This document shows positions 53,675 through 64,000 of a stretch of 64,000 bases of DNA, one piece after another (within the stretch, counting starts at the first letter, position 1; every line of letters starts with the position of its first letter). Source of the stretch: Phycisphaerales bacterium. GTDB taxonomy: Bacteria > Planctomycetota > Phycisphaerae > Phycisphaerales > UBA1924. Under the pieces are notes generated by a model. It saw nothing but the letters and a program-made list of their open reading frames with translations, had not been told where the DNA came from and searched no databases. The stretch is taken from contig JAHDXL010000002.1 in NCBI GenBank assembly GCA_023382935.1, positions 1-64,000 of the forward strand. The letters run 5' to 3'. The position numbers and the translations under genes are program-made.

Positions 53675-55609
53675 ATGCACAGGCCGGGATTCTGGAACTG
53701 GATTACACTCACGCTGATGACGCTGGCTGTTCTGGCCTCGTCCGCGCGCGGGCAGTCACCCTTTGCTCCGGTTTTCGGGGCCGACCGCGTGGGCGTCGAG
53801 GTCAAGGCCAACCGCGATTCGGTTGAGCCGGGTGGGGTGGTGGTCGTCGGCATTGTGCTGGACATGGAGCCGGGCTGGCACACGCACACCAACGAGCCGC
53901 CGCCCATGAAGGCCTTCAACCCGGTCAAGACCGAACTGGCCAAACTCGTGGTCCAGGGCGGGCGGGCGGGCCCGATCCAGTGGCCGGAGTCCCGCACGAT
54001 CATGGTGGACTTCACCGGCTCCGGGCGGCAGCCATATCCCGTCTTTGAGGGAAGGGCCTTGATCTTCCTTCCGGTATTCGTCGATCCGCAGGCCACCGGC
54101 GAAGTCAGGGTGAACTTCGAACTGGTCTTTCAGGCTTGCGACGACACCATGTGCGACCCGCCCGAGTTCCAGCCCAGAGAAGTCTTCATCCCCATCGGCG
54201 CGGGCGCGGACGCAATTTGGGACGGCGACTTCGCCGCTTTCGATCGCTCAAGTCTGGAGCATCCTCAGACGTTTCCGGACGCGGATGGCCCGTCCACTTC
54301 TTCAGGCGATGCCGACTCTGCCGGTTCAAGTTTCTTCGGCTTCCGTGTGCCGAAGGGGCTGCTGGCATTGGCGTTCTTCGGGGCTCTCGGCGGACTGGTG
54401 CTCAACCTCACCCCCTGCGTGCTCCCGGTCATTCCGCTGAAGGTGATGGCCCTGTCCAAGCATGCGTCCTCGCCGGGCCGGAGTCTGGTGCTCGGCATCT
54501 GGATGGCGCTGGGAGTCGTCGCGTTCTGGCTGGGCATCGGGTTGCCCGTGGCTTTTTTCAGTTCCGTCGGCGACCCTTCGCAGATCTTCGGCATCTGGTG
54601 GGTCACACTGGGTATCGGCGCGATCATCGCGGTCATGGGCGTCGGCATCATGGGGCTGTTCGAGATCCGACTGCCCGACTCGGTGTACGCGGTCAATCCA
54701 AGGGCCGACAACGCCTGGGGCTCGTTCCTGTTCGGGGTGATGACGGCCGTGCTCGGTCTGCCCTGCTTTGGCTTCGTCGCAGGGGCACTGCTGGCTGGAT
54801 CAGCCACCATGCCGGCCGCAGAGATTATGACTATCTTCGGCTCGATCGGCGTGGGCATGGCGCTGCCCTACCTCGTACTTTCCTTCAAGCCGAAGTGGGC
54901 GGAAAAACTGCCCAAGACCGGGCCTGCCAGCGATCTGGTCAAGCAGGTCATGGGCCTGCTCATGCTTGCAGCGGCCATGTTCTTCATCGGATCGGGCGTC
55001 ATGGCGCTGCTCAAGTCCGATCCGGTGCGAGCGGCCCAGTTGCCCGTGTGGGTCAAGGTCGCACACTGGTGGGCCGTGGCGGCGTGCGCTACGGCGGCCG
55101 GCGCGTGGCTCACCTGGCGGACGAAGCAGATTACCCCCAGGGTGGGTCGACGCGCTGCCTTTGGGCTCGTCGGAGTGCTGTTCGCCGGCGTGGCCATCGC
55201 CTTTGCCTCTGGACGCACGAACAAAGCCATGCACGACTTCTGGAGCCCTTTCAGTCCCGAGGTGCTCGCCGGGGCCGTCGCCGGAGGCAAGGTGGTCGTG
55301 GTCGATTTCACCGCTGACTGGTGCCTCAACTGCCAGGCGCTCAAGGCGACCGTACTCGATCGCGACCCGGTCAAAGGCGAACTGGCCTCGTCCGAGGTCG
55401 TGCCGCTGATCGCCGACCTCACCAGCGGTCAAGCTCCCGGCTGGGACAAACTCCGCGACCTCGGACAGACGGGCATTCCGTTGCTCGTGATCTACGGACC
55501 AGGCCTGAAAGAGCCGTGGATGCAGAACGCCTACACCTCCGCCCAAGTGATGGAGGCGTTGCGGCAAGCATCCGGAAAGCGGGCGGCTTCGGCCGCTCCG
55601 GCGGATTGA
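53675..55609 (+). CDS. dsbD: thiol:disulfide interchange protein DsbD
   Basis: Transfers reducing equivalents from cytosolic thioredoxin across the membrane, 644 residues. A signal peptide (cleavage near ARGQ) is followed by the N-terminal domain with C155 and C160 (ACDDTMC). About eight membrane helices carry C248 (LTPCVLPVIP) and C364 (GLPCFGF), and the C-terminal thioredoxin-like domain has WCLNC (C550, C553). All six redox cysteines are present. Monocistronic, ending just before the tRNA-Gly promoter. Confidence 0.95.
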   Translation: MHRPGFWNWITLTLMTLAVLASSARGQSPFAPVFGADRVGVEVKANRDSVEPGGVVVVGIVLDMEPGWHTHTNEPPPMKAFNPVKTELAKLVVQGGRAGPIQWPESRTIMVDFTGSGRQPYPVFEGRALIFLPVFVDPQATGEVRVNFELVFQACDDTMCDPPEFQPREVFIPIGAGADAIWDGDFAAFDRSSLEHPQTFPDADGPSTSSGDADSAGSSFFGFRVPKGLLALAFFGALGGLVLNLTPCVLPVIPLKVMALSKHASSPGRSLVLGIWMALGVVAFWLGIGLPVAFFSSVGDPSQIFGIWWVTLGIGAIIAVMGVGIMGLFEIRLPDSVYAVNPRADNAWGSFLFGVMTAVLGLPCFGFVAGALLAGSATMPAAEIMTIFGSIGVGMALPYLVLSFKPKWAEKLPKTGPASDLVKQVMGLLMLAAAMFFIGSGVMALLKSDPVRAAQLPVWVKVAHWWAVAACATAAGAWLTWRTKQITPRVGRRAAFGLVGVLFAGVAIAFASGRTNKAMHDFWSPFSPEVLAGAVAGGKVVVVDFTADWCLNCQALKATVLDRDPVKGELASSEVVPLIADLTSGQAPGWDKLRDLGQTGIPLLVIYGPGLKEPWMQNAYTSAQVMEALRQASGKRAASAAPAD

Positions 55610-55634
55610 CTCGAAGGGCGTTTGGGTATACCTT
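55606..55634 (+). promoter_or_regulatory. sigma-70-like promoter of tRNA-Gly
   Basis: TTGACT, 17 bases, TACCTT, about 50 bases upstream of the tRNA gene. The -35 overlaps the dsbD stop codon. TTGACA at ~55676 directly before the tRNA is too close to serve as its promoter. Confidence 0.5.
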
Positions 55635-55685
55635 GATTGCCCCTGCCGGAACGCCGATGAAGGTCTGGCTGGGGCTTGACAACCC

Positions 55686-55757
55686 GCGGGTGTAGCTCAG
55701 TGGTAGAGCGTCACGTTGCCAACGTGAAAGTCGTGAGTTCGAATCTCATCACCCGCT
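55686..55757 (+). tRNA. tRNA-Gly(GCC)
   Basis: 72 bases folding as a cloverleaf: acceptor GCGGGTG/CACCCGC, D arm GCTC...GAGC, anticodon stem ACGTT GCC AACGT region with anticodon GCC, T arm with GTTCGAATC, discriminator T. CCA is not encoded. Confidence 0.97.
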
Positions 55758-56127
55758 TTCCAGCCCTTGGATCAGGCTATTCTGCTTGATCGTCCACGTT
55801 GAGCCCACATGGTTTGACCCGGCGTCCGACGTCGGGTTTTTTCGTGCGGCAAGACCAGAATACGAGCCTGACCGAATCCGGCAAGGGGCGACTTGGGGCG
55901 GTCCCTTGTCGGCGAGACTGGGGGGCTTTCCCGGGGGTAGGTCTCTATACCCGGTTCCCACCTTCCCCCCAATTCGCAGAGAATTGGTGACTTTTCCTGC
56001 ACATTTCTCGTCCGATAGCGGTTTTGGTTGTTTGAGGTGTGGGTGCAATAGGGTACATTGAGGCCCCATGGGATCCGAGCGAGTTCTTCGCCCGGTGAGA
56101 GCACAAGCCTGAAACAGGGGTCCGACC
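55758..56127. other. intergenic region after tRNA-Gly
   Basis: About 370 bases. Apart from the terminator at 55817-55842, no gene is seen. GGGTACATT around 56051 could be a -10 for the haloperoxidase gene. Confidence 0.4.
55817..55842 (+). terminator. rho-independent terminator after tRNA-Gly
   Basis: ACCCGGCGT and ACGTCGGGT form a 9-bp stem (one G-U) with loop CCG, followed by six T. It lies 60 bases past the tRNA. Confidence 0.85.
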
Positions 56128-58245
56128 ATGGGAACGAAAAGAGTCTGGACGGGGGCGTCGTTGGCCATTTTGCTGACGGCCGGGGCACCGATGGCGGCGG
56201 CCCAGGGGGAATGGGTCTATCGCGACGAACGCGGGCAGGTCGCGCAGCCGCGCGGAACGCACAGCGTGGCGAGGCAGTGGAACGACGTGTTGCTTGACGC
56301 CATTCGAGTCGATCTCGCGCGTCCCACGGTGCATGCACGCAACCTGTTCCACACGTCGATGGCGATGTGGGACGCCTGGGCCGCGTACGACGAGCACGCT
56401 GATGGATGGCTGTTCCACGAGAAGCACACCGCCGGGGACGTGCAGGTGGCGCGTGAAGTGACGATCAGTTACGCAATGATGCGGTTGATTCAGCATCGCT
56501 TTGCGACCTCACCCGGCGCGGCAGCGACGCTGGCCAACTGCAACAACCTGATGAATAGCCTGGGTCTGGATCCGAACTTCACGAGCACGGTGGGGAACTC
56601 TCCGGAGGCAGTGGGCAATCGCATCGCCGCAAACCTGATCGCGTGGGGGTTGACGGACGGGTCGAATGAATCGGGAGGCTACGCGAACCAGTATTACGAG
56701 CCGGTCAATCCGGCGTTGTTGATGATCATGCCGGGCAATCCGGACATCATCGATCCGAACCGCTGGCAGCCGCTGGCGTTGAGTTTCTACGTCGACCAGG
56801 GCGGGAACATCATTCCGGACGGGTATCCGCCGTTCCTGAGCCCCGAGTGGGGCAACGTGACGCCATTCTCACTCCGCCTGCAGGACCGCACGGTGACGAT
56901 GCGCGACGGACACCAGTGGATTACGTATCACGATCCGGGGGCGCCCCCTCTGCACAATGGCGTGGGCGATGATTACTACCGCTGGGGCTTCGAACTGGTG
57001 TCGGTGTGGAGCGGACAACTGGATCCCAGCGACGGGGTGATGTGGGACATTTCTCCGGCCAGCATGGGGAACGCGCCATTGGCGAACGTGAACGACTGGG
57101 CGAGTTTCTACGATCGGATGAACGGCGGGGACGCGGGCAATGGGTACCCCGTCAACCCCGTCACTGGGCAGCCCTATGCATCGCAGATCGTCCCGCGTGG
57201 CGATTACGCGCGCATTCTGGCCGAGTTCTGGGCTGACGGCCCTCACTCGGAGACTCCTCCGGGTCACTGGTTCACGATCCTGAACTACGTGAATGACCAC
57301 CCGCTCTTCGAGAAGCGTCTGGGCGGCACCGGGCCGATCATGGAGGATCTGGAGTGGGACGTGAAGGCGTATCTGGCGCTGGGCGGCGCGATGCACGACG
57401 TCGCGGTGAGCGTCTGGGGCGTGAAGGGGAGGTACGACTTTGTGCGTCCGGTGTCGGCGATTCGCTATATGGCCGACCAGGGGCAGAGGACCGACCCCAA
57501 TCTGCCCGCGTATGACCCGGACGGGTTCAACCTGATCCCGGGGGCGATCGAAGTGGTGACGGCGGAGACGACCGCGCCCGGACAACGGCACGAACATTTG
57601 GCCGGTTCGGAAGGCAAGATCGCGATTTATGCCTGGCGCGGGCCGGACTACATCGCCGATCCGTTGACCGACGTCGCCGGCGCAGGCTGGATCCTCGCGG
57701 AGAGTTGGTGGCCGTACCAGAGGCCGACGTTCGTCAGCCCGCCATTCGCCGGGTACGTGTCCGGGCACAGCACGTACAGCCGTGCGGCGGCGATGGTGAT
57801 GGAACTGCTCACGGGCAGCGCGTACTTCCCCGGCGGGCTGGGCGAGTTCCTGTGTCCGCAGAATCAGTACCTGGTGTTCGAGGATGGGCCCAGCGTGGAC
57901 GTGACGCTGCAGTGGGCTCGGTACATGGACGCCAGCGACCAGTGCTCGTTGTCGCGCATCTGGGGCGGCATCCACCCGCCTTGTGACGACCTGCCCGGGC
58001 GGCAGATGGGCAACGTGATCGGGCCTGACGCGGTCGACCATGCGCTGCGCCACTTTGACGGGAGGATTTCCTGCCCGGCCGACTTGGCGTTTCCTCGCGG
58101 GGTGCTGAACTTTTTTGACGTGCAGCGCTTCCTGAACCTTTACGTGGCAGAGGACGGTGCCGCCGACCTGGCGCCACCTTTCCGGCACTTCGACTTCTTC
58201 GACGTGCAGCGATTCCTGAACTACTACTCGGCTGGATGCCCGTAA
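56128..58245 (+). CDS. secreted vanadium-haloperoxidase-like protein with dockerin-like tail
   Basis: A 705-residue exported protein of the PAP2/vanadium haloperoxidase superfamily. The signal peptide ends near AAAQ. The first ~430 residues are helical, and the vanadate/phosphate-binding core lies in SPPFAGYVSGHSTYSRAAAM (~534-553) and RIWGGIHPPCDD (~610-621), where SGH and the late R..GIH are the expected contacts. Whether it is a haloperoxidase or a phosphatase cannot be told. The last 60 residues hold two copies of FFDVQRFLN with a Gly-Cys-Pro end, a dockerin-like module I associate with Planctomycetota and probably used for protein-protein docking or cell-surface sorting. Confidence 0.85.
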   Translation: MGTKRVWTGASLAILLTAGAPMAAAQGEWVYRDERGQVAQPRGTHSVARQWNDVLLDAIRVDLARPTVHARNLFHTSMAMWDAWAAYDEHADGWLFHEKHTAGDVQVAREVTISYAMMRLIQHRFATSPGAAATLANCNNLMNSLGLDPNFTSTVGNSPEAVGNRIAANLIAWGLTDGSNESGGYANQYYEPVNPALLMIMPGNPDIIDPNRWQPLALSFYVDQGGNIIPDGYPPFLSPEWGNVTPFSLRLQDRTVTMRDGHQWITYHDPGAPPLHNGVGDDYYRWGFELVSVWSGQLDPSDGVMWDISPASMGNAPLANVNDWASFYDRMNGGDAGNGYPVNPVTGQPYASQIVPRGDYARILAEFWADGPHSETPPGHWFTILNYVNDHPLFEKRLGGTGPIMEDLEWDVKAYLALGGAMHDVAVSVWGVKGRYDFVRPVSAIRYMADQGQRTDPNLPAYDPDGFNLIPGAIEVVTAETTAPGQRHEHLAGSEGKIAIYAWRGPDYIADPLTDVAGAGWILAESWWPYQRPTFVSPPFAGYVSGHSTYSRAAAMVMELLTGSAYFPGGLGEFLCPQNQYLVFEDGPSVDVTLQWARYMDASDQCSLSRIWGGIHPPCDDLPGRQMGNVIGPDAVDHALRHFDGRISCPADLAFPRGVLNFFDVQRFLNLYVAEDGAADLAPPFRHFDFFDVQRFLNYYSAGCP

Positions 58246-58274
58246 GGTCGACGTGGCACGAGGGTGATGGAGTG

Positions 58275-58306
58275 GGGGGGCGGTCAGAATGGCCGTCCCC
58301 CTTTTT
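58275..58306 (+). terminator. rho-independent terminator after the haloperoxidase gene
   Basis: GGGGGGCGGTC and GGCCGTCCCCC form an 11-bp stem (with G-U pairs) around loop AGAAT, followed by five T. It lies 29 bases after the stop. Confidence 0.85.
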
Positions 58307-58377
58307 GCTTGGTGCGGCTTGTGCACTGCCGGGCGACCGCACTTGCGGACGATCGGCGAGGTGGTCAGACTGGTGCC

Positions 58378-61300
58378 ATGAGCAACTGCTGCAATGGCGG
58401 GTCGTGCGGGCCGGGCGTCAGTCGGCGCGGGTTCATGGGTGCGTCGGTCGGAGCGTGGCTGCTCGCGTCGGCGGGGCGCGCGTTTGCCGGTCCGTTCGAG
58501 CAGGCTGCGGACGGTGAGCACCCGATCCCGGCGGACAAGAAACTGAACGAAGCGTGGGTGCGTTCGCTCTACGAGCGAGGGGAGCCCATGCGCTGCCGCG
58601 GGCAGGAACTCGCCTTCATTGGCATGCCCGTGGGCGGCGTGTGCTGCGGAACAATGTACCTCGGCGGCGACGGGCGCCTGTGGGTGTGGGACATTTTCAA
58701 CGAGCATCACCTCGGCGTGGTGGCCAACCGTCTGCCCGAGTATCGCGGGCAGCGGGCGACGGAACTGGACGGGTCGAACTACTTTGCCCCGCCCAACGCC
58801 GACGAGCATCGGCCAGTGGGACAGGGCTTTGCGCTGCGCGTGGGCGACGACGTGCGGACGCTGGACAAGGAAGGCTTCTCCGAGGTCGAGTTTGAGAGCG
58901 GATATCCGATCGGGACAGTGCGCTATCGGGACGACGGCTGTCCTGTGGCGGTGAAACTCGAGGCTTTCAGCCCGTTCATCCCGCTCGACGTCGATGCGTC
59001 TGCGATTCCTTGCACGATCATGTCATTCGAGTTGCACAACACCTCGGAGCACATGGTGCAGGGAGAGATGGCCGGCTGGCTGGAAAACGCGGTGGCGATC
59101 CGCAACGGTGCGCCGGGTCTGGGCGTGCGGCGGGTGCGCCCGGTGCGTCGGCCCGGACTGACCAGCGTGGCGATGGACGCGCTGCCGCAGCAGTGGGAGA
59201 AGGGTGAGGAAGTTCTGTTCGCCGACTTTGAGCAGGAGACCTGGCCGGCGGGCTGGGTGGCGCAGGGCGAGGCGATGGGCACCGGGCCGATCGCGCGGGC
59301 CGAGATGCCGGCGTATCACAATGTGTCCGAAGATCGTGGGCTGCGCTCGGTCAACACGCACAACACGCGCGCGGTGGGGCCCAACGTGGGCGCCGCCGAC
59401 AACTTGAAGGGCACACTGACCAGCCCCGAGTTCACCATCGAGAAACGCTTCATTAACATGATGGTCGGCGGCGGGCGGCACCCCGGAAAGACCTGCATCA
59501 ACTTGCTGGTGGACGGGAATGTGGTGCGCACGGCGACCGGGCGTGACAGCAACCGCATGTCGGCCCAGTCGTGGGAGGTTTCGGACCTGGCGGGGAAAAA
59601 GGCCCGCATCGAGATTGTCGACGACCAGACCGGTGCGTGGGGGCACATCGCCTGCGATCACATCGTTTTTGCCGATGCGCCGTGGATGGAGAACTCATTC
59701 GAGCAAATGTCGGATTACGGATCGATGGCGCTGTCGCTGGTCGGAGACGCGGCCGCCAGCGTGGTGAGCGACCTGGACCCGGGCATCGCGGTCGAGCAGT
59801 TGTGGCGCCAGCCTTCGGGAAGGACCGATGACGCGGCGACGCGGGACTTCGGCAGGCGGCATGCGGGGGCGCTGCTGACGCGGGTGCGCCTGGAGCCGGG
59901 TGAGAAGATCACTCTGAACTACGTGGTGTCGTGGTTCTTCCCGTTCATCGCTCACGACCCGCCGGGCATGCATGCGATCAACGACATGCCGCGGCTGAAC
60001 CGGCACTACGCAGAGCGGTTCACATCGGCGTGGGATGTCGCGGGCGTGGTGGCACGCGATTTTGAGCGACTGACGACGCAGACGCGGCTGTTTCACAAGA
60101 CTTGGTATGACACGACGCTGCCGCACTGGTTGCTGGAGCGCACCCTGCTCACGGTCAACACCGCGCAGACGACGACGTGTCACCTGTTTGACAACGGGCG
60201 GTTCTGGGCGTGGGAGGGCGTGGGCTGCTGTCACGGAACCTGCCAGCACGTGTGGAACTATGGGCAGGCGCTGGCGCGCATATTTCCCGACCTCGAACGC
60301 CGGACACGCGAGATGGTGGACTTCGGGCTGGCCTGGCACGACAACGGCGCGACCGACTACCGCGCCGAGTACGGACGGCATGTGGCGCACGACGGGCAAC
60401 TCGGCACCATCCTGCGGGCGTACCGTGAGCACCAGATGTCGACGGACGAGCAGTTCCTCAAACGCATCTGGTCGCGTGTGCGCAAGTCGCTGGAGTACGT
60501 CATCGCCCAGGATGCCGACGCTGACGGGCTGCTCGAAGGCGAGCAGTACAACACGCTTGATGCGTCGTGGTTCGGAAACATGGCGTGGATCAGTTCGATG
60601 TATCTGGCGGCCGTGGCGGCGGGGCGCGAGATGGCGCTCGATGTGGGCGACGTCGAGTTCATCGCCACCTGTGACAGGATTCTGGAGGTGGGTAGGAAGA
60701 GTCTGGTCGAGAAGTTGTACGACGGGGATTACTTCATCCACACTCCGCCGGACTTTGAGCATCCGAACACGAACAAGGGCTGCCACGCCGACCAGTTGTT
60801 CGGCCAGAGTTACGCGCACCAGTTGGGCCTGCCGCGCGTGGCCGATGCCGAGCGCAGCCGGTCTGCCCTGCGGTCGATCTGGACGTACAACTTTGCGCCC
60901 GACGCGGGCAAGTATCGCGAACGGACGCCGGTGAAAGGCGGGGATCCGAACAACGTGGGGCCGGGGCGTTGGTACGCCCTGCCTGGCGAGGCGGGGCTGA
61001 TCGTGTGCACCTGGCCCAAGGGCGGAGGCGACAAGTCTGGCAACCACTGGGCGGTGGGGTACTTCAACGAGTGCTGGACGGGGTTCGAGTACCAAGTCGC
61101 GTCGCACATGATTTACGAAGGTGAGCCAGACCTGGTGCAGGCGGGGCTGGCCATCACGCGGGCGGCGCACGACCGCTATCACCCTTCGAAGCGCAACCCG
61201 TACAACGAGATCGAATGCTCGGACCACTACGCGCGTGCGATGGCCAGTTTCGGCGTCTACCTGGCCTGCTGCGGGTATGAGCATCACGGCCCGCGCGGGC

Positions 61301-61611
61301 ATATCGGCTTTGCCCCCCGAATCAACACGGATGACTTCTCCGGCGCCTTCACGGCCGCGGGAGCCTGGGGCACGTTTACGCAGCGGCGCACGAACGGCGA
61401 GCAGGCCCTTTCGATCGAGGTGAAGTGGGGCGAGTTGTCCATCCGCACCATCGCGATGGAACTGGGCGAGGCGAGCGATCCGTCCTCGCTGGCGATTGAC
61501 TGGCCGGGCGGCGCGACTTTCGAGCGCCAGGGCCAACGACTGCTGGTGCGTCTGCGCGAGACGGCGCGTGTGCGTGCGGGCGAACGACTGGTGGTCGTCG
61601 TTCGAACCTGA
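58378..61611 (+). CDS. GH116-family glycosidase (glucosylceramidase-like) with inserted beta-sandwich
   Basis: A 1077-residue exported enzyme. ATG at 58378 begins a Tat-type signal (SRRGFMGASVG). The N-terminal GH116 beta domain (LAFIGMPVGGVCCGTMYLGGDGRLWVWDIFN) is interrupted at ~280-440 by a module with LTSPEFTIEKRFINMMVGGG, KTCINLLVDGNVVRTATG and ARIEIVDDQTGAWGHIACDHIVF, which closely resembles a domain appended to many bacterial GH32 enzymes. The catalytic (alpha/alpha)6 barrel follows, with ADGLLEGEQYNTLDASWFG (~715-733) and CHADQLFGQ (~802-810), segments that hold the family's active-site acids. Substrate is probably a beta-glucoside or beta-xyloside; not certain. Confidence 0.87.
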   Translation: MSNCCNGGSCGPGVSRRGFMGASVGAWLLASAGRAFAGPFEQAADGEHPIPADKKLNEAWVRSLYERGEPMRCRGQELAFIGMPVGGVCCGTMYLGGDGRLWVWDIFNEHHLGVVANRLPEYRGQRATELDGSNYFAPPNADEHRPVGQGFALRVGDDVRTLDKEGFSEVEFESGYPIGTVRYRDDGCPVAVKLEAFSPFIPLDVDASAIPCTIMSFELHNTSEHMVQGEMAGWLENAVAIRNGAPGLGVRRVRPVRRPGLTSVAMDALPQQWEKGEEVLFADFEQETWPAGWVAQGEAMGTGPIARAEMPAYHNVSEDRGLRSVNTHNTRAVGPNVGAADNLKGTLTSPEFTIEKRFINMMVGGGRHPGKTCINLLVDGNVVRTATGRDSNRMSAQSWEVSDLAGKKARIEIVDDQTGAWGHIACDHIVFADAPWMENSFEQMSDYGSMALSLVGDAAASVVSDLDPGIAVEQLWRQPSGRTDDAATRDFGRRHAGALLTRVRLEPGEKITLNYVVSWFFPFIAHDPPGMHAINDMPRLNRHYAERFTSAWDVAGVVARDFERLTTQTRLFHKTWYDTTLPHWLLERTLLTVNTAQTTTCHLFDNGRFWAWEGVGCCHGTCQHVWNYGQALARIFPDLERRTREMVDFGLAWHDNGATDYRAEYGRHVAHDGQLGTILRAYREHQMSTDEQFLKRIWSRVRKSLEYVIAQDADADGLLEGEQYNTLDASWFGNMAWISSMYLAAVAAGREMALDVGDVEFIATCDRILEVGRKSLVEKLYDGDYFIHTPPDFEHPNTNKGCHADQLFGQSYAHQLGLPRVADAERSRSALRSIWTYNFAPDAGKYRERTPVKGGDPNNVGPGRWYALPGEAGLIVCTWPKGGGDKSGNHWAVGYFNECWTGFEYQVASHMIYEGEPDLVQAGLAITRAAHDRYHPSKRNPYNEIECSDHYARAMASFGVYLACCGYEHHGPRGHIGFAPRINTDDFSGAFTAAGAWGTFTQRRTNGEQALSIEVKWGELSIRTIAMELGEASDPSSLAIDWPGGATFERQGQRLLVRLRETARVRAGERLVVVVRT

Positions 61612-61645
61612 AGCAAGCCGGTCGGTGGCGGCTGTCCAAAGAGCA

Positions 61646-61667
61646 GGGGCCCGCTTCTGCGGGCCCC
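61646..61667. terminator. bidirectional hairpin between GH116 and infC
   Basis: GGGGCCCGC and GCGGGCCCC form a perfect 9-bp stem with loop TTCT, between the convergent GH116 and infC genes. No T tract follows on either side. Confidence 0.6.
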
Positions 61668-61698
61668 CGACGGCTGATTCAGGATGCCTGGCCCTGCC

Positions 61699-62481
61699 TC
61701 ATTCTCCGAGGAGGTCGGCGATTTCGGCGTCGATGGGGTTGACCGCGCGGTCATCGGCCGGGCCCCGCCTCTTGCCTTTTTCGTTTCCGCCGTTGTCGTC
61801 GTCATCATCGGCGACCTGGTCGTCGGCCTCGAGTTCGGCCAGATTCTGCGCCTCGAGTTTGCGCAACTCCTCGGCTTCCTTCTCGAGTTGCTCCTTGCTC
61901 ATCTTGCGCTTGGCGGCCTCGACCTTCTGCCGGTCCGGCGCGACGATGATGCTCGCCTGGCGTCCCATCCAGCGAGGTGGGACTTCGACCTTGGCGATGT
62001 CGGAGAGTTGCTCACAGATCTCAGCCAGACGCTCGATGCCGAGTTCCTTGTGGGCCATTTCACGCCCGCGGAAGCGTTGGGTGATCTGGACTTTGTGCCC
62101 GGCCATGAGGAAGCGCCGGGTCTGATCGACGCGAATCTGCACGTCGTGGGGGTCGATCTTGACGGAGCGCCCGAGCCGGATTTCCTTCAGTTCGGTGCTC
62201 TTGGAACTGGCCCGGCTCTTCTGCTGCTTCTTGGAGAGTTCGTACTTGTGCTTGCCGTAGTCCATGATCTTGCACACGGGCGGACGGACATCGGGGGAGA
62301 TCTCGACCAAGTCGAGCCCCTGCTCCTGCGCCATGCGCAATGCCTCGGCCGTCTCGATGACGCCGATCTGCTCGTTGTCAGGCCCAATCACTCGGATCGG
62401 GGTGATGCGGATCATGTGATTGAGGCGCGTCCGCTGGACGGGCCCGGCCGGTCGGAAGAAACGCCTAGAACCAGATATGAT
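61699..62481 (-). CDS. infC: translation initiation factor IF-3, likely ATC or ATA start
   Basis: IF-3 controls start-codon fidelity. The core is complete: IRVIGPDNEQIGVIETAEAL, DLVEISPDVRPPVCKIMDYGKHKYE and VQITQRFRGREMAH. It ends in a Lys/Glu/Asp-rich extension (with DDDDD), making it longer (260 residues) than the usual ~180. The only ATG in a sensible place, at 62415, has no ribosome site and would cut off the basic N-terminus (SRRFFRPAGPVQRTRLN). A strong AGGAG (62487-62491) lies five bases before ATC (62481) or eight before ATA (62478), with no ATG, GTG or TTG in frame between it and 62415. infC is known to use AUU in E. coli for autoregulation. rpmI and rplT, the usual downstream partners, are absent. 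Confidence 0.92.
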   Translation of the reverse strand: MISGSRRFFRPAGPVQRTRLNHMIRITPIRVIGPDNEQIGVIETAEALRMAQEQGLDLVEISPDVRPPVCKIMDYGKHKYELSKKQQKSRASSKSTELKEIRLGRSVKIDPHDVQIRVDQTRRFLMAGHKVQITQRFRGREMAHKELGIERLAEICEQLSDIAKVEVPPRWMGRQASIIVAPDRQKVEAAKRKMSKEQLEKEAEELRKLEAQNLAELEADDQVADDDDDNGGNEKGKRRGPADDRAVNPIDAEIADLLGE

Positions 62482-62491
62482 GCACTCTCCT
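62476..62491 (-). promoter_or_regulatory. Shine-Dalgarno and non-canonical start of infC
   Basis: AGGAG followed by ATC then ATA in the infC frame. This placement decides the start and suggests IF-3-dependent autoregulation, as for the AUU start of E. coli infC. Confidence 0.65.
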
Positions 62492-62794
62492 GATTGGAAC
62501 CAAACGAACCCCGTGGCCACGGCGGCACGGGAAGGCTGGACCCGCGAACTCTCGCGGGGGTTTGTCCGGGCACATGTTGTGGGGATCTCCGAGCCTCATG
62601 AATGCACGGGCACGTCGGACCGCCTGGCGGCCTGTCGATCGTGCGGATTGGTCAGACCAGGGTGAACTGGCATGAAACCTGGGCTCCGGAGAAGTGCATC
62701 GTCGATTTGCTCCCGACAGAGCGCAATCTACCCCTCAAGAGCGCGGAAAGCAAGCATTCGGCCATCTTTACCTGCATGATCGGACCACGGTTCG
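62482..62794. other. intergenic region upstream of infC
   Basis: About 310 bases with no convincing gene. No thrS, the usual neighbour, is seen. I find no clear promoter. Confidence 0.4.
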
Positions 62795-64000
62795 TCAGGC
62801 CGGACGGATTCCCCGATACAGTTGCTGGACCCGGTCGGCCTCCTGGCGACGGATGTTCTCAAGCACCAAGCGGGGTACGCGCCACTGGTTTTCCTCGGCC
62901 GTCACGTTCGAGCAGTGTTCGTTGAGACAGCGGTAGAGGAATTTCAGGGCGTCGCGGGGCTGGTGCATCTGGTCGAGGGCGTCGACCAGATCCTGCCGAG
63001 TCACGTCGTCGGCAAAGAGGTCGAGCAGAGAGATGGGTTCCGCGTCGGGCGCGCGGCAGGCCTTGAGACGGGCCGAGCACAGGTCGTAGAGCATCGCCCC
63101 CGTCCAGGTCAGACGTTCGATGAGGCTCTGCTTGTCGAGCCGGGCCTCTTGAAAGAACGAACTGGACTCGCGGAAGAGCGAGTAGCGCAGTTCAATGGGC
63201 AGCAGCAGTTTGAGCCCGAGGCGTTCGTGCTGAAGGAACTTGTTGTTGAGCATGGGCCAGACAATCGCCTGCATGCGCTCGGGGTCGCCGTTGACCAGCG
63301 TAGGCTCGTCCACCCGATCGACCAGGACAAGGACTCCGGTGAAGCCGAAGGCATCCAGGATCTGCTGGAGAGATTGAAAGTGGGCGTAGCGGGTGGCGTC
63401 GGAATCGTCGCGGTCGGCCCGGCGGTGCAGGGCACCGGGCAGGTGTTCGAAAGAGTGAACGTAACTAAGTTCGGCACGGGGCAGAAGTCGGCGCTGTCTG
63501 GACAGGCGTCGGACCAAGCGGCGCAGGGAGAAGCGGTCCCACACCAGGCGCTTGATCGCCAGCGCCAGGTACCCGACACCCAGGCCCATCGCCAGGTAGG
63601 CCGCCCCGGTGCCGACCAGCCCACCGGGCTTGCTGATGAGTACCCAAGCCACCAGAGCCGCCGGAGGGGTCCAGCCGAGCAGCAGCACGGCATTCCACCC
63701 GACGGTCTCGCGACTGGGACGGACACGCAGCGCCCGGCGGAGTCGGACGGCCCGGTGCCCGTCGACATCGCGCAAATCGTACAGGGCTTGGAGGATGCGG
63801 AACTGCTGCTTGAGTTCGGGGTCGAGACTGCGGGCGATCCGATTGCGGTTAGGGCCCAAGTCGTTGACTGATTCCGCTCCGCCCCGCCCAAGCAGGTCGT
63901 CGATGACGTCGGTGACGGCCAGAGCGAGGATTGCGTCGATATGATCGACGATCCGAATGGCGCGCAAGGAAGTGGCGACGTCTTTCCCCCCGATTCTGGC
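62795..64000 (-). CDS. partial membrane-associated NTPase-like protein (5' end off window)
   Basis: The frame is open to the window edge, so the N-terminus is missing; about 401 residues are seen. Two membrane helices (AVLLLGWTPPAALVAWVLI and AAYLAMGLGVGYLALAI) lie in the middle, followed by a basic region and GVLVLVDRVDEPTLVNGD, which looks like a Walker B/strand-3 segment of a P-loop NTPase, possibly KAP- or STAND-like. Any Walker A would lie beyond the window. The rest is helical. An internal TTG at 63967 is not a credible start because coding-like sequence continues upstream of it. Confidence 0.6.
   Translation of the reverse strand, partial: ARIGGKDVATSLRAIRIVDHIDAILALAVTDVIDDLLGRGGAESVNDLGPNRNRIARSLDPELKQQFRILQALYDLRDVDGHRAVRLRRALRVRPSRETVGWNAVLLLGWTPPAALVAWVLISKPGGLVGTGAAYLAMGLGVGYLALAIKRLVWDRFSLRRLVRRLSRQRRLLPRAELSYVHSFEHLPGALHRRADRDDSDATRYAHFQSLQQILDAFGFTGVLVLVDRVDEPTLVNGDPERMQAIVWPMLNNKFLQHERLGLKLLLPIELRYSLFRESSSFFQEARLDKQSLIERLTWTGAMLYDLCSARLKACRAPDAEPISLLDLFADDVTRQDLVDALDQMHQPRDALKFLYRCLNEHCSNVTAEENQWRVPRLVLENIRRQEADRVQQLYRGIRPA

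Follow-up and report, generated by a model that had tools for sequence, protein, structure and literature searches.

Where does translation of infC begin when a strong Shine-Dalgarno (SD) sequence is followed by no nearby ATG, GTG or TTG? This question is raised by a Phycisphaerales gene near the end of the window, the 64,000-nucleotide stretch of DNA analysed here, which comes from a draft assembly of 35 contigs. Two rare codons, ATC and ATA, lie side by side behind the SD, and the first canonical codon downstream would shorten the protein.

The infC gene and its candidate starts

The gene on the minus strand that ends at 61699 is infC. Its product matches NCBIfam TIGR00168 with 189.6 bits (cut-off 60), PF05198 (IF3_N) with 103.3 (cut-off 26.9) and PF00707 (IF3_C) with 92.2 (cut-off 34.8), as well as the IF-3 chains of PDB entries. 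It is the one IF3_N match that the genome holds. The features needed for the argument are these:

61699..62478, minus strand: infC, coding for translation initiation factor IF-3; the frame runs from ATA to a TGA stop (TIGR00168, PF05198, PF00707, PDB IF-3 chains)
62487..62491, minus strand: SD AGGAG of infC, read from the sequence; nearly all relatives have an SD of at least 4 bases, 7-9 nt before the start column
62476..62478, minus strand: ATA, the most likely infC start codon; it stands 8 nt after AGGAG, in the start column conserved among relatives; ATC at this place in the sister L028
62479..62481, minus strand: ATC one codon upstream of ATA, 5 nt after AGGAG, a possible second or shifted start
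62416..62475, minus strand: basic N-terminal extension SGSRRFFRPAGPVQRTRLNH of infC, the same protein as in the sister L028, with a synonymous excess over 36 pairs
62413..62415, minus strand: internal ATG (Met), the nearest canonical candidate downstream but rejected as the start; no SD, not conserved as NTG
62518..62520, minus strand: upstream in-frame GTG, a rejected rival start; no SD, in a region that evolves as non-coding, with TAA in L019

Read on the minus strand, AGGAG is followed by AGTGC, ATC and ATA, and both of the rare codons are in the infC frame. After ATA come TCT GGT TCT AGG CGT TTC TTC CGA CCG GCC and GGG CCC GTC CAG CGG ACG CGC CTC AAT CAC, and then the ATG at 62415-62413; no ATG, GTG or TTG occurs in frame between the rare codons and this ATG. 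The 25 nt that precede it (CGTCCAGCGGACGCGCCTCAATCAC) hold no SD. The initial annotation had described this layout (AGGAG, ATC after 5 bases, ATA after 8, no NTG until the ATG at 62415, and that ATG lacking a ribosome site), and it is exact in every part. Upstream of the same ATG the frame stays open over 60 codons. This stretch includes an in-frame GTG (62520), which likewise lacks an SD and which that annotation had not mentioned.

The start column among relatives

Loci of infC were drawn from relatives' genomes, genome contigs, a phylum sample and extra regions; after deduplication the order-level set held 111 genes, window included. When all in-frame codons of this set were tabulated by distance from the SD, ATC occurred 87 times, ATA 5 times and ATT 3 times at 7-9 nt. 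The counts at 7, 8 and 9 nt were 37, 43 and 7 for ATC, 3, 2 and 0 for ATA, and 2, 1 and 0 for ATT, and the codons flanking the column on either side were diverse. A direct start caller applied to the order-level genes returned ATC in 91, ATA in 5 and ATT in 4, with an SD spacing of 7-9 nt in 90 of the 91 ATC calls and a modal spacing of 8. The curated tally after inspection (n=111 including the window) is 93 ATC, 5 ATA, 4 ATT, 6 ATG and 3 unassigned; GTG or TTG calls made by an automatic start finder in L047, L155, L164 and L165 were dismissed on inspection.

What is found is an AUN start, a non-NUG codon at proper SD spacing that is kept among relatives. A second gene, rplT, served as a control. 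It starts with ATG in 30 of 30 relatives of the same group, with similar SDs and SD spacing, so the rare codon belongs to infC and not to the genes of the clade generally. The stretch from the in-frame stop to the IF3 domain lacks any NTG in 31 of 103 relatives, and in 4 the absence extends 22 codons into the domain itself. On the IF3 tree at least eight changes lead to ATA or ATT (4 each); four changes to ATA are required, of which starred branches make at least three unavoidable, and no in-place change to ATG occurs. Judged from these comparisons, the rare start column in infC is beyond chance, the 110 distinct relatives being overwhelmingly ATC, ATA or ATT. The earlier proposal of a non-canonical infC start is upheld by the relatives, in which column, SD spacing and downstream protein sequence are all conserved.

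Coding of the N-terminal extension

Near relatives were compared in 36 non-overlapping pairs, and the extension was set against the 17 codons that precede the SD. The extension showed 172 synonymous and 121 non-synonymous codon differences, the codons before the SD 39 and 509, an odds ratio of 18.6 (p=4e-60, a guide value since it assumes independent codons). By codon position the differences were 94/84/244 in the extension and 390/374/376 upstream of the SD. By this measure protein-like evolution starts at the start column, and the region upstream of the SD is non-coding. The window and the sister L028 give the same SGSRRFFRPAGPVQRTRLNH protein, every nucleotide difference between them being synonymous.

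AUA, AUC and the canonical starts

The start-region codon pair is ATC-ATA in the window, ACC-ATC in the sister L028 and ATC-ATC in the congener L019. Both L028 and L019 have the conserved ATC 8 nt after AGGAG, and this ATC aligns with the ATA of the window; in the window, therefore, ATA fills the homologous start column. The column one codon upstream varies among relatives (ACC, CCC, GAC, GCC, CTC) and is apparently untranslated, so the ATC at 62481-62479 is not the ancestral start.

A start shifted by one codon to that AUC, or the use of both AUC and AUA to give products that differ by one residue, is nevertheless a minority possibility of some weight. AUC is the codon favoured across the order, and ATC and ATA stand adjacent in the window alone, where L028 and L019 have their own pairs. 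Its spacing from AGGAG, however, is only 5 nt, against 7-9 in 90 of the 91 ATC calls, and across the window and 400 kb of its genome the spacing from AGGAG to NTG peaks at 6-8, with a value of 5 in 3 of 29 cases. Its column is also without constraint in relatives. With ATA in the homologous column and the relatives spaced at 7-9 nt, the best call from sequence is AUA as the preferred start and AUC as a possible second one. The initial annotation had left the choice at "ATC or ATA"; the rare codon stood, and the choice narrows to ATA, at a spacing of 8, as the ATC column is variable. The window's ATA differs at the third base from the ATC of both congeners, and a base error in the draft assembly at that position is possible; ATA also occupies the start column in four other order-level genes.

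Neither canonical codon fares well. Translation from the ATG at 62415, with the upstream segment including SGSRRFFRPAGPVQR as an untranslated leader, is extremely improbable: this ATG is the first canonical start codon downstream of the SD and is shared widely, but it has no SD of its own, and the codons ahead of it carry the strong synonymous excess expected of constraint at the protein level. The homologous codon is ATG in 61 of 111 genes and elsewhere mostly CTG, CGC, GAG or CAG, with TTG, CTC, CGA, CGG, TTC, AGG and GAC also present, and a column so variable marks the ATG as an internal residue. As the initial annotation had pointed out, a start here would drop the basic N-terminal segment, and 62416-62475 is indeed both basic and constrained as protein. 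It had also named the pattern that would speak for this ATG, namely conservation in relatives with none upstream; the relatives have ATG in just the 61 genes, and the upstream segment is constrained.

Translation from the upstream GTG at 62520, which would add 14 residues before ATA, is equally improbable: the frame is open to this GTG and L028 shares it, but it has no SD, differences upstream of the SD fall evenly over the three codon positions, and an in-frame stop lies 10 codons or fewer upstream of the start column in 46 of 103 relatives. In the congener L019 an in-frame TAA stands just before the SD, with no NTG ahead of the ATG, which excludes an upstream start in that genome. A gene finder might still pick the GTG.

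Probable control by IF3

The explanation held with high confidence is that infC starts at a conserved rare codon, most likely the AUA at 62478-62476, 8 nt after AGGAG, and is probably subject to feedback by IF3. The start column, its conservation as AUC, AUA or AUU, the SD spacing and the coding N-terminal extension are observed; from them we infer initiation at AUA (possibly at AUC too) and negative feedback by IF3. AUA would pair imperfectly with the initiator tRNA at the third base, and IF3 on the 30S subunit would destabilise initiation there. With IF3 abundant, its own mRNA would be poorly initiated; with IF3 scarce, initiation would rise.

Autoregulation of infC by IF3 through the rare start is likely by homology, and it is supported by the rare codons kept across the order and by a motif in the protein, RFRGREMAH. 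Arginines of the IF3 C-domain that lie in this motif are thought to matter for start-codon discrimination. The motif is identical here to that of an E. coli-like IF-3 chain, 8jsg_A. About eight interchanges among AUC, AUA and AUU, with no in-place AUG, are suggestive of selection against a strong start.

Six relatives near L053 and L061 do start infC with ATG (L014, L047, L065, L073, L164 and L165), which shows that infC can do without the rare codon. Where sequences were aligned by eye, their start lies two codons downstream of the old ATC column. The SD spacing in this group is about 12-13 nt, against 7-9 elsewhere, and the SD is weak in L165.

It is unlikely that the rare start only holds IF3 low, as a fixed weak start with no feedback. 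The stretched spacing of the ATG group, where assignable, does look as if low initiation had been kept there, but infC control in E. coli is known to rest on discrimination by IF3 against AUU, AUC and AUA (PMC5472188), and with an identical C-domain motif here feedback should follow from the codon. Feedback by IF3 remains the preferred reading. A broader idea is put forward tentatively: selection in the Phycisphaerales may act on low, IF3-gated initiation and not on a particular codon, so that control by a rare codon could be traded for control by spacing. It is drawn from the interchange of AUC, AUA and AUU without in-place AUG and from the poor spacing of the lone AUG group.

RNA structure was considered as a control element at the infC start and is unsupported, since the fold around the start (-37.8 kcal/mol) does not surpass those of shuffled sequences (z 0.38). 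No Rfam leader was found in 55000-64000, where the sole Rfam match is a tRNA-Gly. A G+C-rich hairpin, CCCGCGAGAGTTCGCGGG, lies at 62540-62562 on the minus strand, some 50 nt before the SD of infC, and is a candidate leader or terminator element.

In E. coli the gene belongs to an infC-rpmI-rplT operon. In contrast, infC here stands apart from rplT, which is on the same contig but not adjacent (C2:264309-264629), and the regions flanking 97 related infC loci contain no L20 gene; linkage to rplT, and with it L20 control, was rejected on these grounds. The neighbours of infC include a 390-aa ORF upstream (62795-63967, minus strand) with no Pfam match and, convergent to infC, a large protein that carries domains of glycoside hydrolase family 116 (58264-61611, plus strand).

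The wider phylum and known systems

A rougher census covered 107 further loci, most of them from elsewhere in the phylum, with automatic SD-based calls that are individually less certain than those at order level: ATC 30, ATT 25, TTG 15, ACG 9, ATA 7, ATG 5, CTG 4, GTG 3 and none 9. In 35 of the 107 the frame runs from its stop to the IF3 domain without a single ATG, GTG or TTG. ACG at good SD spacing seems to be the infC start in several planctomycetes (L131, L135, L140, L187, L205, L228 and others), and in some the start seems to be CTG. No ACG start of infC was found in the literature covered, nor any description of planctomycete infC starts in the open-licence literature.

Elsewhere, rare starts of infC are well documented. 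For example, E. coli infC starts with AUU, IF3 makes initiation complexes that form on non-NUG codons unstable, and autocontrol is lost when AUU is changed to AUG (PMC5472188 and references therein); the initial annotation's appeal to this AUU start and its autoregulation agrees with that literature. The gene in the window is an orthologue with an AUN start after a good SD and the same RFRGREMAH motif, but its codon is AUA or AUC in place of AUU, and its Arg-rich N-terminal extension is longer. AUU is also the infC start in B. subtilis (PMC1805508). In S. aureus retapamulin-based ribosome profiling revealed an AUA start (PMC13009471); this is the same codon in the same gene, although in another phylum, and was seen there by experiment where here it is deduced from comparison. 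Streptomyces, in yet another phylum, starts infC with ATC (PMC5472188), as do most relatives of the window, whose own codon is probably ATA. The annotation hazard is the same, and rare infC starts are often mis-annotated (PMC5472188; PMC3091656).

Rare infC starts are therefore already known, and the Phycisphaerales case is a new, well-supported example. Rare-start control of infC, demonstrated by experiment in a small number of model bacteria, is extended by it to an order (and, on the rougher census, a phylum) of mostly uncultured organisms. AUC, AUA and AUU appear interchangeable in evolution while an in-place AUG is avoided. Gene callers limited to ATG, GTG and TTG would predict an IF3 that is too short or too long in these genomes, a systematic mis-annotation.
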